From positions 62,001 through 126,000 of the forward strand of contig NEVA01000006.1 of the NCBI GenBank assembly GCA_002304445.1: 64,000 nucleotides of DNA. The letters run 5' to 3'. A program made the translations under genes and the position numbers. This document shows, in pieces, positions 7,892-15,315 of the stretch. Numbering within the stretch: the first letter of the stretch is position 1; the number at the start of each line of letters is the position of its first letter. The notes beneath the pieces are model-generated. The model made no database searches. It was not told the DNA's origin and was given only the letters and a program-made list of their open reading frames with translations. Source of the stretch: Opitutia bacterium Tous-C4FEB. Its GTDB lineage: Bacteria > Verrucomicrobiota > Verrucomicrobiia > Opitutales > Opitutaceae.

Positions 7892-9430
7892 TCAGGTGTT
7901 CGGCGGGTATAGCGACCCGTTGGGGAAGTTGCCGCAGAGCGGCCGATCCCCGTCGGTGAAGGCAGAGATCAGCAGATCACCACCCACGAAGGCGCCGCGC
8001 CACGAGGCACCCCGGCCGCCGAAAACCTCCTCCCGATCGCCGCGACTCCGCGGGGCGTTGACGCCAAACTTGAAAGACTGGACGTCTGGCCGGAGCCGCG
8101 CCGCGAAAGCAGGGTCATCGGTCGCGATGGAGGCTACTAAAGCACCGTTCGAGACATTCATAGCTGACAGGAGTTCAGACTCGGTATCGACGATGACGAT
8201 CGAGTCGATCGGTCCGAAAGGCTCGCTGTGATGGAAGGACCAACCCGTCGGCGGATTAAGCACGCAGGCCGGCGCGATGTAGGCCGACTGGTCCTGACCC
8301 GCGATGAAGCGACCGACTCCTAGGCCACCCCGGATTAAAGGGATGCCGCCGGCCACGATGGCTTCCTCGTATCGTGCCCGGAGATCGGTGGCCTTCGACT
8401 GAGATATGACCGGTCCGAAATCCAGCTCCGGCAACGGGTCGCCCGGCGCGGCCACCGCAAAGGGATTCCCGAACTTTAGGGAGGCGATGACTTCTTGGTA
8501 AGTGGCGAGGAAGTCGGGCAAGAGGCGGCGTTGGACGACATAGCGCGGATAGGCGGTGCAGCGCTGCTTGGCGTATTCGAAACCTTTCTTGAGATGGCCC
8601 GCGAGCAGCGGCCACTGCGAGAAATTCCAGATGCCCCATGTATTGAGGCCTTCCTGCTCGAGGATGTGCCGGCGACGCAAGTCAGCCAAGGTGCTCGCGG
8701 CTTTGCGGCCGTTGGAGCGCCCGCCGACGAACGCCAGCGCGCCCAGCTGCGGAGACGAGATGAGCGCGTCGCTGAGGTCGCCCCCAATACCAGAAAGCAA
8801 CGTCACGGGTAATCCCGCCCGTACCATCAGGGCATGCGCCAGCGTCAAAGCGTGGAAGCCGCCTTGCGAAGGGGTCTTGGCGATGACGGCGCTACCCGCC
8901 AGTAACTGCGCAAGTTCGGCATGGACCAGCACGCTCAGGGGGTAATTCCATGAAGCAATATTGGAAACGGGCCCCGCGAGAGGCGTCCGCCCTTCCATCT
9001 GTCGTTCGATTTCCTTGATATACCAATCCACCCCGTCGACGCAGCGATCGACGTCCGCGCAGGCGATACGCCAAGGTTTGCCGATCTCCCACATCAGGAG
9101 AAGCGCGAGGGTATCGCGGTGCTCGCGGAGGAGCCCGAGAGCCGCCTGCACGCGGCGCTGGCGCTCATCTAGCGGCACCTTGGCCCAGGAAGCATGCTGG
9201 CGGGCGGACGCCTCGACCGCCGCGACGGCCGTTTGTTTGTCGATCCGGGGCGGGCCAGGAATCAACGAGGCATCGATCGCTAAAGCGTGTGGGCGGGTTT
9301 CTCCGACAAATTTCCATTCCCCGCCAATCAGGTTGGCGATACGGTTAGCCTCAAAAGCCTCAGGAGCGGCTTGGCGGGCGCGACGATAGACGTCGTCCCA
9401 AGTGGTTCCTGGCTTGTGTTGTAGGGTCAT
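7892..9430 (-). CDS. Aldehyde dehydrogenase family protein
   Basis: NAD(P)-dependent aldehyde oxidation, 512 residues, cytoplasmic. Key positions are intact: the ASWNYPLSV segment at 159-167 (family PWNFP), K185 in VIAKTPSQ (cofactor binding), E258 in ILEQEGLN (general base) and the catalytic nucleophile C291 in KQRCTAYP. The C-terminal part carries SEPFGPIDSIVIVD. The N-terminal extension (DDVYRRARQAAPEAFEANRIANLIGGEW) is like the acyl-semialdehyde type of enzymes. The glutamate motif is unusual (LEQEG rather than LELGG). Substrate is not clear. Start ATG at 9430. Confidence 0.9.
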   Translation of the reverse strand: MTLQHKPGTTWDDVYRRARQAAPEAFEANRIANLIGGEWKFVGETRPHALAIDASLIPGPPRIDKQTAVAAVEASARQHASWAKVPLDERQRRVQAALGLLREHRDTLALLLMWEIGKPWRIACADVDRCVDGVDWYIKEIERQMEGRTPLAGPVSNIASWNYPLSVLVHAELAQLLAGSAVIAKTPSQGGFHALTLAHALMVRAGLPVTLLSGIGGDLSDALISSPQLGALAFVGGRSNGRKAASTLADLRRRHILEQEGLNTWGIWNFSQWPLLAGHLKKGFEYAKQRCTAYPRYVVQRRLLPDFLATYQEVIASLKFGNPFAVAAPGDPLPELDFGPVISQSKATDLRARYEEAIVAGGIPLIRGGLGVGRFIAGQDQSAYIAPACVLNPPTGWSFHHSEPFGPIDSIVIVDTESELLSAMNVSNGALVASIATDDPAFAARLRPDVQSFKFGVNAPRSRGDREEVFGGRGASWRGAFVGGDLLISAFTDGDRPLCGNFPNGSLYPPNT

Positions 9431-11305: not shown

Positions 11306-13426
11306 TCAGAACCGATACTCCGCGCTCACGCCGAACTGCCGCGGATCGGCCCGGGTCTCGTAGCGCGTCTCGACGTAGTCCGGGTCCTCGTTGCCGAAGA
11401 AAAACACCCGTTTCTCATAACGCGTATTCGTGAGATTTTTCCCCCAGAGCGTGAACGTCCATTCGCGCCACGCATAGCCGAGGCTGGCGTTGTAGAGGCG
11501 GAACGCGCGGCGCGCTTCGTTTTGATTGTTGGAGTCGAATTGCCGGGCGCGGGCGACGAGTTCGGCCGACGCGAAGAGCCCGGTCGGGGCCGGCCGGTAA
11601 CGCGTGCTCAACGTGGTGCCGGTGCGCGGCGTATTCGCGAGCGGGCGACCTCCGCCGGCATTGCCGTTGGTGAGCGAAAATCTATCGAGTTCAGACTCCA
11701 TCGCCGCGAGCGTGCCGGCGACGGACCAGTCGGGAGTCAGCGCATAATTCACCGCGGCCTCGAAGCCGGTAACGCGGGCGGCGCGGGCGTTGGCCGTGAA
11801 GAAGCGGTAGTTGCCGCCGAAACCCGCCGAGTCGCGCACCTGCGTGTCGGCGCGATCGAGGCTGAACGCGGTGATCTCGGCCGTGAGCGAACGCTCCAGC
11901 CACGAACCGCGCAGGCCAACCTCGGTGTTCCACAGCGTCTCGGTGCCGTAGGTCAGCGGATCGGCCGGCGGATTGATGCGCGCGTCGAGGTTGACGCCAC
12001 CTGCCTTATAACCGCGCGTGACCGAGGCAAACGCGAGCACGGCGCCGGTGAGATCGTGCTCAAGCGTGAGTTTCCCGCCGAGCAGGGTGTCGTCGAAGGC
12101 AGGCGAAAACGTGACCACCGGATCAAACGTGTTACGCGCTTGGCGGAAACGGGTCCTCGTGCCCCGACCGGCGAGGGCAATGTGCTCCGCGCGCAGACCA
12201 ACAATGAGACGCGTGCGCGGCGAAAAATCATGCGCGATTTGGCCGAAGCCCGCAAACTGGTCCGAATCGTAGCGCGTGCGCAGACCGCGCACGTTGCCCG
12301 GATCGGTGTTCGTGTAGGCGCTGTCTTCGACGAGGTTCGCGTAGAAGCCGCCAAGCGTCCACCGGTCGATGGCCCCGAACGCTCCGCGCGTGAGCAAGGA
12401 GTCAAGTCGCAGCTCCTGGTTAAAGCCGTCCCGCGAGCGCCGAAGATCACTGAAGCCTTGGTAAGACGCGGCGGTCCAGTCGTCATCATAACTGTAAACC
12501 GACTTCACCCGGGTACCGCTGGTGATGGTCGTGAGCCGCACGCCATCGAGCCCGGAGTAAGTGCCGCGCAGGCTGGCGGCGGTGGAGCGTTGTTCGTCGC
12601 GCCCCGGTTGATCGCTGAGCGTGCGGCGGCCGTTGTTATCGAGCGCAAACTCGTCGAAACCGTTGTTTACCTCGGAAAAAAGCACCGCGCCGTCCCAGCG
12701 CCAAGCCGGCGAGAGATTGGCCGTCAGACGGAGCCGGGCGTTGAACTCGTCACGGGCGTTGGTCGCGCGGCCGAGCGTGGCGTTGCGCCGAAAGCCGTCA
12801 CTCGCGTGCTGCTGCACCGCCAGACGCACCATGAAACGATCGGGCTGTGCAGCGACCAGTGGGCCACCGAGTGCAAATCCGCCCTCGCGCAACGCGTCTT
12901 CGCCGAAACGCGACTCGACGCGTCCCGTCCAAAACGGCGTCGGCGCGTTGGTCACCAAGCGCACGACGCCCCCGGCCGCGTTGGCCCCGAACGCACCGGC
13001 CTGCGGCCCGCGCAAGACCTCGATTTGGCTGACATCAAACGTGCTCCCGAGCGTGCCAAGCCCCGTGAAATCGAAATCATCGACAAGAAAACGCACCGCA
13101 GAATCCGGCGTCTCGCCCTCGTATTGGGAGTTCTCGCCGATGCCGCGGATCTGAAAATACCGCGGTCGCGAAGTGCCGCCGGTAAACGTGAGATTGGGAA
13201 TCCGGTCGGCCAAGTCGCCAAAATGACCGACCGCCCCGAAGCGTAGGGTCGCTTCGTCGAAGACCGTCACGCTCGCCGGAATTTGCGCGAGTGGGGACGC
13301 CCATAGATCGGCCGTGACGCGCACGGGCGCCAACGTCACGGCGCCGGGCGGCTGGGCCGGCTCGGCGGCAGGCAACGTCGCGGCGAGCGCGAAGCTGAGA
13401 AGAGAGATTCGAATCGGAGGATGCAT
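11306..13426 (-). CDS. TonB-dependent receptor under TPP riboswitch control
   Basis: Outer-membrane receptor of 706 residues, probably for thiamin or a thiamin precursor. Start ATG at 13426 gives a good signal peptide (ISLLSFALAATLPAA). The plug domain includes QIPASVTVFDEATLR, RYFQIRGIGENSQYEG and VSQIEVLRGPQAGAFGANAAGGVVRLVT. The barrel follows and the protein ends in the outer-membrane signature FGVSAEYRF. By sequence alone it looks like an iron-siderophore type receptor, but the upstream leader (13509-13604) is a clear TPP riboswitch. Known thiamin-linked TonB receptors in Bacteroidetes have the same arrangement. Substrate is inferred from regulation. Confidence 0.92.
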   Translation of the reverse strand: MHPPIRISLLSFALAATLPAAEPAQPPGAVTLAPVRVTADLWASPLAQIPASVTVFDEATLRFGAVGHFGDLADRIPNLTFTGGTSRPRYFQIRGIGENSQYEGETPDSAVRFLVDDFDFTGLGTLGSTFDVSQIEVLRGPQAGAFGANAAGGVVRLVTNAPTPFWTGRVESRFGEDALREGGFALGGPLVAAQPDRFMVRLAVQQHASDGFRRNATLGRATNARDEFNARLRLTANLSPAWRWDGAVLFSEVNNGFDEFALDNNGRRTLSDQPGRDEQRSTAASLRGTYSGLDGVRLTTITSGTRVKSVYSYDDDWTAASYQGFSDLRRSRDGFNQELRLDSLLTRGAFGAIDRWTLGGFYANLVEDSAYTNTDPGNVRGLRTRYDSDQFAGFGQIAHDFSPRTRLIVGLRAEHIALAGRGTRTRFRQARNTFDPVVTFSPAFDDTLLGGKLTLEHDLTGAVLAFASVTRGYKAGGVNLDARINPPADPLTYGTETLWNTEVGLRGSWLERSLTAEITAFSLDRADTQVRDSAGFGGNYRFFTANARAARVTGFEAAVNYALTPDWSVAGTLAAMESELDRFSLTNGNAGGGRPLANTPRTGTTLSTRYRPAPTGLFASAELVARARQFDSNNQNEARRAFRLYNASLGYAWREWTFTLWGKNLTNTRYEKRVFFFGNEDPDYVETRYETRADPRQFGVSAEYRF

Positions 13427-13458
13427 GGTGGGTGATGCCCAACCCAAACGGACCGCCG

Positions 13459-13482
13459 AAAAAGGGGGCGCGAGTCGCGCCC
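13459..13482 (-). terminator. Second hairpin of the riboswitch expression platform
   Basis: On the minus strand a GGGCGCG / CGCGCCC hairpin with a 3-base loop (13466-13482) is followed by a run of five U (13463-13459). It lies between the first terminator hairpin and the TonB receptor start at 13426. It may be a second terminator or an alternative fold. Confidence 0.6.
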
Positions 13483-13484
13483 TC

Positions 13485-13507
13485 AAAAAAAGGCGCAATC
13501 CGCGCCT
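13485..13507 (-). terminator. Intrinsic terminator after the TPP aptamer
   Basis: On the minus strand AGGCGC, loop GGATT, GCGCCT is followed by a run of U (13490-13485). It starts within a few bases of the 3' side of aptamer helix P1. This is the usual layout for ligand-induced transcription termination. Confidence 0.75.
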
Positions 13508-13508
13508 G

Positions 13509-13604
13509 CTGTTTCCTTCGTCGGCATGATCCGTTCAGGTTCGAAGGGTCGAGCGGCCGAATCGCGCCACAATCTCAGTCTTCCGCGGAAGACACCCCTA
13601 CAGG
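13509..13604 (-). promoter_or_regulatory. TPP riboswitch (THI element)
   Basis: Reading the minus strand, all the conserved THI blocks are present in order: GGGGTG at 13598-13593, the P3 hairpin TCTTCC/GGAAGA, CTGAGA at 13578-13573, ACCC then TTCGAACCTGA with ACCTGA at 13540-13535, CGGATCATGCCG with TCATGCCG at 13529-13522, and CGAAGG at 13520-13515. Helix P1 pairs CTGT (13603-13600) with ACAG (13512-13509). A U-tracted hairpin follows at once, so binding of thiamin pyrophosphate should switch off the TonB receptor gene. These motifs are highly specific and I consider the call firm. Confidence 0.96.
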
Positions 13605-13688
13605 CAAAGCGGAGCAAAAGCGTGATCGTGGGCGGCGCAAGAATTTCCTGCCAATTTCGCGAATTCAACGCGAAGCCGCCCCGCCGGG

Positions 13689-13849
13689 AAAAAAGAAGCC
13701 GCCCCGTTTAAGGGGCGGCTCACATAACCAAACACCAAGCAAACCGGAATGACTTACTAATCCTGACCGTGTTACCAGCACGGCCCTGCTATCTGGTCGA
13801 TAGATGCTGAATTTTGGAAAACGCTCAAAATTGCCCAAGGAAACTTTGG
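13689..13849 (-). ncRNA. Candidate structured small RNA, copy B
   Basis: Second of two tandem diverged copies (the other is at 13874-14033). On the minus strand it has a hairpin with 7-bp stem GGCCGTG / CACGGTC and loop CTGGTAA (13785-13765), a 14-base block GGTTTGCTTGGTGT (13745-13732) identical in both copies, and a strong terminal hairpin AGCCGCCCC / GGGGCGGCT (13720-13697) followed by UC and six U. There is also a possible CTATC/GATAG hairpin. No open reading frame is persuasive. The minus strand is favoured because the stems need G-U pairs and the U-tract is on that strand. Function unknown; no known RNA family recognised. Confidence 0.65.
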
Positions 13850-13873
13850 ATCCCAAATCCGGCCGCAGACCCC

Positions 13874-14033
13874 AAAAACGACAAGAGCCGCCTCCGATGA
13901 AGGAGGCGGCTCATGTAACCTGACACCAAGCAAACCATTGAACCTCTAACCTTGGCCGTCTTACCAGGACAGCCTTTTCATTAAGATAGATGCGCCCAAT
14001 TCAAAATTGCTCAAAAAAACCGAAAGTTTTTTT
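13874..14033 (-). ncRNA. Candidate structured small RNA, copy A
   Basis: First of two tandem copies, between the KamA-like gene (ends 14119) and the TPP riboswitch. Minus-strand features: hairpin GGCTGTC / GACGGCC with the same CTGGTAA loop (13974-13954), identical block GGTTTGCTTGGTGT (13936-13923), and a terminal hairpin AGCCGCCTCC / GGAGGCGGCT (13911-13886) followed by a looser U run (13878-13874). Compared with copy B the stem bases differ but pairing is kept, which is covariation. It could be a small RNA, a leader RNA or a part of a longer untranslated region. Confidence 0.65.
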
Positions 14034-14037
14034 CTCA
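14011..14037. terminator. A/U-rich hairpin downstream of the KamA-like gene
   Basis: AAAAAAAC, loop TTTCG, then GTTTTTTT on the minus strand, about 85 bases past the stop of the KamA-like gene. It could end that transcript in either direction, though the stem is weak. It also overlaps the 5' edge of RNA copy A. Confidence 0.4.
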
Positions 14038-14118
14038 CGACGCAATCAGCGCTTAAAACCCTAACTGATAAAAATTAAAAACACTGATCGATTCCTCAAT
14101 CCTCGCCGGAGAACTAAT

Positions 14119-15315
14119 TCAGTCCACTATCGTGGCTCCCGCCACGAGATCGCGCTCGCCTTCACCGACGGCCGGCACAGGCGTATTTGTCAGCGGATAT
14201 CTGAACCGTTGGCCTTCGTAGTTGCGGAACACCACTTCGGAGTCGGTGATTTTCTCCACATAATCGGGATTGATCGGAACTTTGCCGCCACCGCCGGGCG
14301 CATCGATCACGTATTGCGGCACCGCATAGCCGGTGGTGTGACCACGCAGAGCGCGGATAATCTCGATACCCTTGCGCACATCGACTTTGAAATGAGCGCC
14401 GCCCGTGATCAGATCCATCTGGTAGATGTAATAGGGCCGAACCCGCATCCGCAGCAGCCGGTGCATCAGGGCCTTCATGACCTCGGCATCGTCGTTGATG
14501 CCCTTCAATAACACGCTCTGATTCCCCAACGGCACGCCGGCAAACGACAAGCGCTCGCACGCCGCCCGTAGCTCGGCCGTCGCCTCCTTTGGGTGGTTCG
14601 TATGGATGCTCATCCAAATCGGGCCGTGCTTTTTGAAGATCTCGCACAATTCCGGGGTGATGCGCTGCGGCAAAAACACCGGAATTCGCGAGCCGATCCG
14701 GATAAACTCCACGTGCTTGATCGCCCGCAGCCGGGACAGCAAATTGTCCAACTTCTTGTCTGAGAGCAGCAGCGGATCGCCGCCGGAAAGCAGCACGTCA
14801 CGGATCTCCGGATGCGTCTCAATATACTTCAACCCTTGTTCAAATTCAGGGTGAAAATTGTAGTCCTGGGCGTTCGAAACCAGGCGGCTCCGCGTGCAAT
14901 AACGGCAGTAGGCCGCGCAACGGTCCGTGACCAAAAACAAGACGCGGTCCGGATAGCGGTGCACCAATCCGGGCACCGGCGAATGCTCATCCTCGCCGAG
15001 CGAATCGAGCATTTCTTCCTCACTCACCACCGCTTCGCCGCCCCGCGGAATCAACTGCTTCCGAATCGGACAATCTGGGTCGTCGCGGTCGATCAGGTTG
15101 AAGAAATACGGGGTGATCGCGAGCGCCAGCTTCTGACTGGCAAAAAGGCAACCGGCCTTCTCGTCGGCCGTGAGCATCATATGCTCTTCCAGCTGGGCCA
15201 CACTCGTGATTCGGTTCTTCAGTTGCCACACCCAGTCGCTCCAATCTGAGGCGGGTATATGCTGCCATAGGCCTTGGCCTTCATACCAGGCAGTGCGGTC
15301 TTCGGTGTAGGGCAT
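14119..15315 (-). CDS. KamA family radical SAM protein (lysine 2,3-aminomutase-like)
   Basis: Radical SAM and PLP enzyme of 398 residues. The iron-sulfur motif is C133-x3-C137-x2-C140 in VTDRCAAYCRYCTRSRLV. The family segment LLSGGDPLLLSDKKLD follows. The PLP-binding lysine is K345 in DAPGGGGKVP. The predicted reaction is the radical shift of the amino group of lysine (or another amino acid) from C2 to C3. The C-terminal tail after K345 has no cysteines, unlike the clostridial enzyme whose tail cysteines bind zinc. Length and N-terminal part (TSVAQLEEHMMLTADE) suit the KamA/YodO group rather than the shorter EpmB. Start ATG at 15315. Confidence 0.9.
   Translation of the reverse strand: MPYTEDRTAWYEGQGLWQHIPASDWSDWVWQLKNRITSVAQLEEHMMLTADEKAGCLFASQKLALAITPYFFNLIDRDDPDCPIRKQLIPRGGEAVVSEEEMLDSLGEDEHSPVPGLVHRYPDRVLFLVTDRCAAYCRYCTRSRLVSNAQDYNFHPEFEQGLKYIETHPEIRDVLLSGGDPLLLSDKKLDNLLSRLRAIKHVEFIRIGSRIPVFLPQRITPELCEIFKKHGPIWMSIHTNHPKEATAELRAACERLSFAGVPLGNQSVLLKGINDDAEVMKALMHRLLRMRVRPYYIYQMDLITGGAHFKVDVRKGIEIIRALRGHTTGYAVPQYVIDAPGGGGKVPINPDYVEKITDSEVVFRNYEGQRFRYPLTNTPVPAVGEGERDLVAGATIVD

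Follow-up and report, generated by a model that had tools for sequence, protein, structure and literature searches.

The question raised by this locus is what two similar stretches on its minus strand represent: sibling small RNAs (sRNAs), a tandem regulatory leader, or sequence that gives rise to no functional RNA. A first-pass annotation of the window (the whole stretch of DNA that was analysed, 64,000 nucleotides) had proposed a conserved structured minus-strand RNA, acting either as sibling sRNAs or as a leader; the conserved RNA was borne out by covariation across the family. We consider it fairly probable that the copies are independent, trans-acting sibling sRNA genes with ECF-type promoters, which would stand under alternative sigma control and pair with mRNAs through a shared core. 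Independent sRNAs are argued for by the own promoter and own terminator of each copy, the free spacing, the partly changing downstream neighbours and the presence of several copies.

Two related units lie on the minus strand between kamA and a TonB receptor gene

Gene and riboswitch model searches of the window agreed with the annotated location of the copies. A gene encoding a KamA-family radical SAM protein (LAM_C/Radical_SAM) is located at 14119-15315 on the minus strand, scoring above the cut-off of TIGR00238 and below that of TIGR03820 (lysine 2,3-aminomutase). On the other side, on the same strand as the copies, a domain search identified a TonB receptor gene at 11306-13498, preceded by a TPP riboswitch (RF00059) at 13609-13496 of the minus strand. 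The position of this riboswitch immediately 5' of a TonB-dependent receptor gene suggests thiamin-related uptake; in other genera, too, both are found together downstream of the sRNAs.

When the letters were re-examined, two related units were indeed present on the minus strand, the upstream copy B at approximately 13993-13871 and the downstream copy A at 13807-13682. They have a 14-base block in common, and sequence changes in their hairpin and their terminator are compensated. Each contains, in this order, TTGAGC, CATCTATC, a hairpin with a CTGGTAA loop (hairpin 1), GGTTTGCTTGGTGT, and a G/C hairpin with a T run behind it. The block GGTTTGCTTGGTGT is identical in both copies (13936-13923 in B, 13745-13732 in A) and has exactly these 2 occurrences in the own genome; measured from block to block, the copies are 191 bases apart, not about 187 as first given. 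The stems of hairpin 1 are unlike in sequence, GGCTGTC/GACGGCC in copy B (13974-13954) and GGCCGTG/CACGGTC in copy A (13785-13765), whereas pairing and the CTGGTAA loop are kept, with one G-U pair per stem when read on the minus strand. Likewise, the terminator stems change together, AGCCGCCTCC/GGAGGCGGCT and AGCCGCCCC/GGGGCGGCT, with T after each; the terminator of copy B covers 13911-13874 (hairpin 13911-13886, T run 13878-13874) and that of copy A 13720-13689. If the transcript start is placed about 7 nt past the -10 element, RNAs of about 105 nt each are predicted (13978-13874 for copy B, 13792-13689 for copy A), shorter than the 130-160 bases originally expected.

A search of the window against Rfam 15 at gathering score returned only TPP at 13496-13609, in keeping with the earlier view that the copies belong to no known Rfam family. 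The best sub-threshold overlaps of the copies (E <= 5, 13400-14200) were BTnc231 on the minus strand (18.6 bits, gathering 80.4) and, on the plus strand, BsrF (24.7 bits, gathering 50). Among related loci, Rfam gave one tRNA alone in 13 loci and TPP alone in 19 of 20 further loci. An identity of the copies as TPP riboswitch or as a member of another Rfam family was rejected, since neither copy gave a match at gathering score; RF00059 shares the intergenic stretch with the copies but is a separate, known element.

Both helices are maintained by compensatory changes

The tested structure, hairpin 1 plus terminator, was drawn by eye from the same alignment that was used for testing, using pairs common to several copies, because RNAalifold on the MAFFT alignment yielded a poor 10-pair consensus in which hairpin 1 was not recovered. 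In the MAFFT alignment of 40 copies, 18 of 22 pairs showed double changes and 86.1% of the cells were paired. None of 500 shuffles reached the observed values for pairing, double changes or covariation, and shifting the pair partners by 1-3 columns abolished the covariation signal. In a larger set of 100 copies from 81 sources, all 22 pairs showed double changes and 90.6% of cells were paired; this model-fitted alignment leans towards the model structure and overlaps with the 40-copy set. For the terminator, double changes were found in 12 of 15 pairs (MAFFT) and in 15 of 15 (model-fitted alignment). Helices 1-2 (hairpin 1) and helix 3 (terminator) thus covary, and a predicted intrinsic terminator, a G/C hairpin followed by T, is found at the 3' end of the copies.

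Across genera the structure of hairpin 1 was kept and its sequence was not, the CTGGTAA loop being mostly an own-genus feature in the alignment; some copies lack the hairpin altogether (L015:1257-1353, L031:1451-1556). Folds of the whole sequence of the two window copies were only moderately better than those of shuffles (z -1.62 and -2.42). For the core, no conserved fold was apparent. Its predicted openness was 0.45; the whole RNA had 0.38 and the 5' flank of the core 0.48 (99 of 100 copies). The spacing between the -10 element and the core varies freely, which counts against coding.

The copies are members of an Opitutaceae RNA family

With one mismatch or none, the 14-base block occurred in 50 of 57 genomes, the own genome included, a count that contains chance sites; real copies were told from these by their context of promoter, core and terminator. 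Covariance model R1 was built from 40 aligned copies of 27 genomes, and only copies with promoter and terminator were admitted. In the kind of search that the annotation had suggested, homologues were found in the Opitutaceae: at E <= 0.01, R1 matched 110 of 150 family genomes, which represent 34 of 49 genera; among these genomes, 21 had also supplied model copies. The likeness of the two window copies is therefore not due to chance. Both are themselves part of the model and were matched at 13871-13993 (copy B, 100.5 bits) and 13682-13807 (copy A, 102.9 bits). No R1 match was present in the other 40 of the 150 family genomes, some of them near complete.

Beyond the family matches were rare. 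The order sample gave 15 of 177 genomes (13 in Opitutaceae) and the phylum sample 23 of 288 (21 in Opitutaceae), and the matches outside the family came from 3 genomes (G202, G275, G455). A similar promoter, a G/U-rich stretch and a terminator were observed at one locus each of G202 (L095) and G275 (L096), which are possible distant relatives. When 84,980 species genomes were scanned for the exact 24-base core, at least 100 stretches were found; among the matches listed, 79 of 80 titles named Verrucomicrobia or subgroups (Opitutus, Lacunisphaera, Ereboglobus, Didemnitutus, Oleiharenicola) and one says just 'bacterium'.

Altogether, the copies are members of a large RNA family in the Opitutaceae that has apparently not been described before. 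Nothing on point was found on sRNAs of Verrucomicrobia, Opitutaceae or Akkermansia in open-licence papers, a scope by which the family is not proven undescribed. Opitutus and Verrucomicrobia are unmentioned in the main text of three structured-RNA surveys (PMC2864571, PMC11109978, PMC6429828). For the PVC group as a whole, a review from 2022 counts 8 sRNA families in Rfam (PMC9029176), and a start-site study that includes Akkermansia presents the promoter logo just as a figure (PMC4782308). Few sRNA records thus seem to exist for Verrucomicrobia.

A conserved promoter motif precedes each copy

The nonamer GCATCTATC (13993-13985 and 13807-13799, minus strand) had been regarded as a shared element of the RNA. 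This assignment was rejected: GCATCTATC lies at a near-constant distance from TTGA(A/G)C, and the likeness of the copies also extends upstream to TTTTGAGC, so that it rather forms the -10 part of a promoter-like pair. The predicted, ECF-sigma-like promoter of copy B, TTGAGC...CATCTATC, is located at 14014-13985 and has 1 mismatch to the pattern TTGARCG-N15-CRTCTNYC, and that of copy A, TTGAGCGTTTT...GCATCTATC, at 13828-13799 has 0 mismatches to it.

The motif TTGA(A/G)CG...C(G/A)TCTATC was found ahead of copies across the family. A promoter expression matched 149 of 171 candidate places. The gap between GARC and CRTC measured 16 bases in 129 of these and one base more in the remaining 20, although the expression left its spacer free to vary between 12 and 16 bases. 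The -35 element reads TTGAGC or TTGAAC followed by G, the -10 element CGTCTATC or CATCTATC, and the spacing between them is nearly fixed. The logo from these 149 copies displays an A-rich stretch, TTTTGA(G/A)CGTTT, the gap and (G/C)C(G/A)TCTATC; some of its letters were fixed by the expression, and the flanking T, the GTTT, the C before RTCT and the C after it were free. At 22 places the expression was missing; L008 and L016 among them seem to be chance matches inside coding sequence, and most others have slightly different promoters.

Within 353 loci (1.6 Mb) the promoter pattern had 127 distinct sites, 123 ahead of the core and 4 ahead of another G/U-rich stretch with terminator, whereas 12 permuted patterns gave 0-3 matches each in the same 1.6 Mb. 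Since these loci, the 4 coreless ones included, were mostly retrieved for their sRNAs, this exclusivity (127 of 127) is not a genome-wide census. An earlier scan restricted to CGTCT had given 87 sites, 79 of them with core. In 20 whole genomes a stricter pattern produced 29 matches against 7 for its reversed control: all 8 exact matches lay at sRNA copies, as did 6 of the 21 one-mismatch matches, the other 15 lying elsewhere. In 9 of these 15 off-copy sites that were examined, no sRNA was found.

Promoters of ECF sigma factors often resemble GAAC/CGTC, and the motif of the copies resembles such promoters, which suggests the class of the sigma factor. In Streptomyces coelicolor, sigmaE promoters have AAC as part of the -35 element and TC as part of the -10 element, 16 or 17 bp apart (PMC6767563). 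The motif ahead of the copies is of this kind (AAC / TC, 16-17 bp spacer; PMC6767563), and how exactly it fits depends on where the element boundaries are drawn. Conservation of promoter and terminator together would be consistent with a discrete transcript from each copy. In some short siblings (L317, L320, L321, L322; see below) a TGTAAAC-like sequence was observed some 25 bases ahead of the -35 element, possibly an activator site.

Association with kamA is commoner than association with the receptor gene

Copies were present at 137 distinct loci, at 99 of which (98 with type I and 1 with the shorter type II described below) kamA was located no more than 1.5 kb upstream and in the same orientation; 29 loci were elsewhere, and in 9 the flank was too short to judge kamA. 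At a narrower limit of 900 bases the count was 68 of 137. Since only 37 of the 137 loci contained two or more copies, most loci are non-tandem as fetched. At 26 loci the downstream 1.5 kb contained, in the same orientation, a TonB receptor gene homologue, 12 of the own genus (including L090, the own genome) and 14 of others; it was absent from 88 loci with sufficient flank, and the flank was insufficient in 23. A TPP riboswitch was present at 19 of 20 loci picked from the own genus or for their receptor homologue. The order kamA, sRNA, TPP riboswitch, receptor gene is thus kept in part of the family, and as the counts of 99 and 26 of 137 indicate, association with kamA is commoner than that with the receptor.

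These data bear on the reading of the copies as cis-acting elements, either an attenuator or leader belonging to the TonB receptor gene with its TPP riboswitch, or a 3' end processed from the kamA mRNA. In the own genus the copies sit between both genes on the same strand, and the idea gained weight because the gene order extends past the own genus, with 14 of the 26 receptor homologues beyond it and TPP in 19 of the 20 chosen loci. However, every copy comes with a conserved promoter and terminator of its own, the TPP aptamer (13609-13496) is a separate element, and the receptor homologue is missing within 1.5 kb downstream at the 88 loci mentioned. In addition, at 2 loci examined in detail (L298, L299) the next gene is on the opposite strand, and the short siblings are mostly found at other loci. 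We therefore regard cis action as unlikely, and the tandem regulatory leader offered by the first-pass annotation is disfavoured.

Even less credit is due to the notion that the copies are a conserved operator and promoter before a small ORF, or a mobile repeat, with no functional RNA. Several copies per genome and GC-rich inverted repeats would fit this notion, but compensatory changes preserve both helices and the length variation does not come in threes. The place downstream of kamA, kept across genera (99 of 137 loci), is unlike a mobile element. We consider this reading very improbable.

Shorter and diverged siblings share the promoter

A shorter sibling type (type II) keeps promoter and core and lacks hairpin 1. 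The loop AGGGGT of its terminator was invariant in 9 aligned copies, with the stem changing in pairs. One short copy is encoded elsewhere in the own genome (G000:C1:122347-122434), where it is divergent from an M12-type peptidase gene and adjoins a TonB receptor gene. Together with the family-wide R1 matches, this short sibling supports the interpretation of the copies as sibling small RNAs.

Model R2, built for the short type, matched 28 of 150 genomes at E below 1e-9, 8 of which had supplied R2 sequences; the count with all matches, 115 of 150 genomes, includes weak matches on type I copies and possibly chance ones. In the phylum sample 20 of 288 genomes were matched at E <= 1e-4, all of them Opitutaceae, and up to seven matches per genome were obtained when weak ones were included. 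Promoter, core-like stretch and terminator were displayed for 28 of the 30 short-sibling loci (L300-L329), the other 2 being on short contigs. Diverged siblings combine a similar promoter with a different G/U-rich core (L331, L332, L342, L346). Among 20 core-like stretches, L245, L252, L253 and L254 were seen as further likely siblings, most others being inside ORFs.

The G/U-rich core is nearly invariant and lacks long complementary targets in the searches performed

The 14-base block is part of a longer conserved G/U-rich core, approximately GTAGTTCTTACGGTTTGCTTGGTGTTAGGTCA. This core may be a target-binding seed, as proposed for the block, and could equally bind a protein. The complement of 16 core bases, CCTAACACCAAGCAAA, was searched with up to 2 mismatches in 15 genomes and had 49 sites, of which 41 were sRNA copies (one of them, in G010, counted without reading its context) and 8 were others, compared with 21 for the reversed control. 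Within 30 bases from ATG, the 11-base complement ACACCAAGCAA had 13 matches in 20 genomes; 8 were antisense to sRNA copies and 5 were others, against 2 in the control, and among these 5 a shared site was found in one close genome pair alone. An extensively complementary, conserved mRNA target of the core was thus not found by these complement searches. Sigma-dependent sRNAs of the RybB/MicA/FoxI class pair with mRNAs of outer-membrane proteins; among the 49 ORF starts of the window, no convincing outlier emerged as a pairing partner, the best z, computed for copy A, being -3.2 at 7892-9430 (60 mononucleotide shuffles). In two genomes of one genus, a one-mismatch complement of the 14-base block was observed near an ORF start (L251, L258), a candidate target site. 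Short or imperfect pairing of the core, or binding of protein, is possible.

Hfq, which an Hfq-dependent sRNA presupposes in the genome, was detected in none of 20 Opitutaceae genomes by a PF17209 search that was positive in 5 of 14 control genomes.

The same data can be read in a less probable but still plausible way, namely that the copies are independent sRNAs whose core sequesters a protein, as CsrB and 6S RNA do, or decoys another RNA, with additional copies raising the dose. The core is nearly invariant across the family and yet no target of long complementarity was found, and several copies per genome carry the same core. On the other hand, neither repeated GGA motifs of the CsrA type nor a closed 6S-like fold was seen by eye, and the siblings that combine other G/U-rich cores with a similar promoter (L331, L332, L342, L346) fit target-specific seeds better.

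We accordingly retain trans-acting sRNAs that pair with mRNAs as the preferred reading. Because the same unusual start signal stands ahead of each RNA gene, the sRNAs probably regulate other genes, in bacteria seemingly without Hfq.

Proposed mode of action and comparison with known sRNAs

Each copy would be a gene of its own for an RNA of about 105 nt (approximately 65-110 nt in the family), composed of a 5' hairpin that varies in sequence, keeps its structure and is absent in the short siblings, followed by a G/U-rich core with hardly any variation and by the terminator. In the likeliest scenario, several siblings would be switched on together by an alternative sigma factor of the stress type, and the shared core would base-pair with short C/A-rich sites in several mRNAs. 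This model follows the sigmaE-dependent sRNAs of enterobacteria and Fusobacterium.

RybB and MicA of Salmonella and E. coli work with Hfq. They are short sRNAs (approximately 70-80 nt) with conserved sigmaE -35/-10 motifs (PMC1804206), which the predicted short RNAs and the ECF-like motif of the copies would resemble. The copies differ in that Hfq was undetected in the 20 Opitutaceae genomes and that the copies have no Rfam match at gathering score. In GcvB a conserved G/U-rich region pairs with C/A-rich mRNA sites, and a G/U-rich conserved region is common to GcvB and the copies; in length, structure, control and distribution GcvB presumably differs from them, the two having been compared through the Rfam scans alone.

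The failure to detect Hfq in any of the 20 genomes led to a comparison with FoxI and FoxJ of Fusobacterium nucleatum, which are sigmaE-dependent sRNAs of a host described as lacking Hfq and ProQ and which have overlapping, non-identical target sets from similar seed regions (PMC11005410). The likeness is one of description: a pair of sRNAs controlled by a single ECF sigma factor in a host without Hfq (PMC11005410), ECF control being suggested here by the promoter motif. Unlike the G/U-rich core of the copies, the seeds of FoxI and FoxJ are C-rich, and target repression and sigmaE control, which we infer for the copies, were demonstrated there (PMC11005410).

A more far-reaching version, that one alternative sigma factor reads a dedicated Opitutaceae promoter class transcribing essentially only sibling sRNAs with shared or diverged G/U-rich cores, free of Hfq, is tentative and we would rather doubt it; if true, the members of this sigma regulon would all be RNAs, working without Hfq. 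With its gene set, promoter motif and two covariance models, the family allows Hfq-free sRNA regulation to be tested in Opitutus and Lacunisphaera; if the promoter is read by an ECF factor, it also opens a way into an unknown stress response of the phylum.

Further conserved elements at the loci studied

Another conserved RNA of the Opitutaceae was observed close to the middle of L335, L336, L343, L350 and L351, and also at L334. It consists of a hairpin, AATTGGGGTAAGTAAGAAAGCAAT or a similar sequence and a terminator that shares the AGGGGT loop of the short siblings, and it is not preceded by the sRNA promoter. The possibility that the sRNA promoter is common to tmRNA genes was dropped, as the pattern occurred in 0 of 20 loci fetched for tmRNA (18 upstream regions; 2 loci gave no tmRNA). 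In several genera the region upstream of tmRNA genes contains a block like GTTCTTTGATTGG (e.g. L281, L277, L288, L289).
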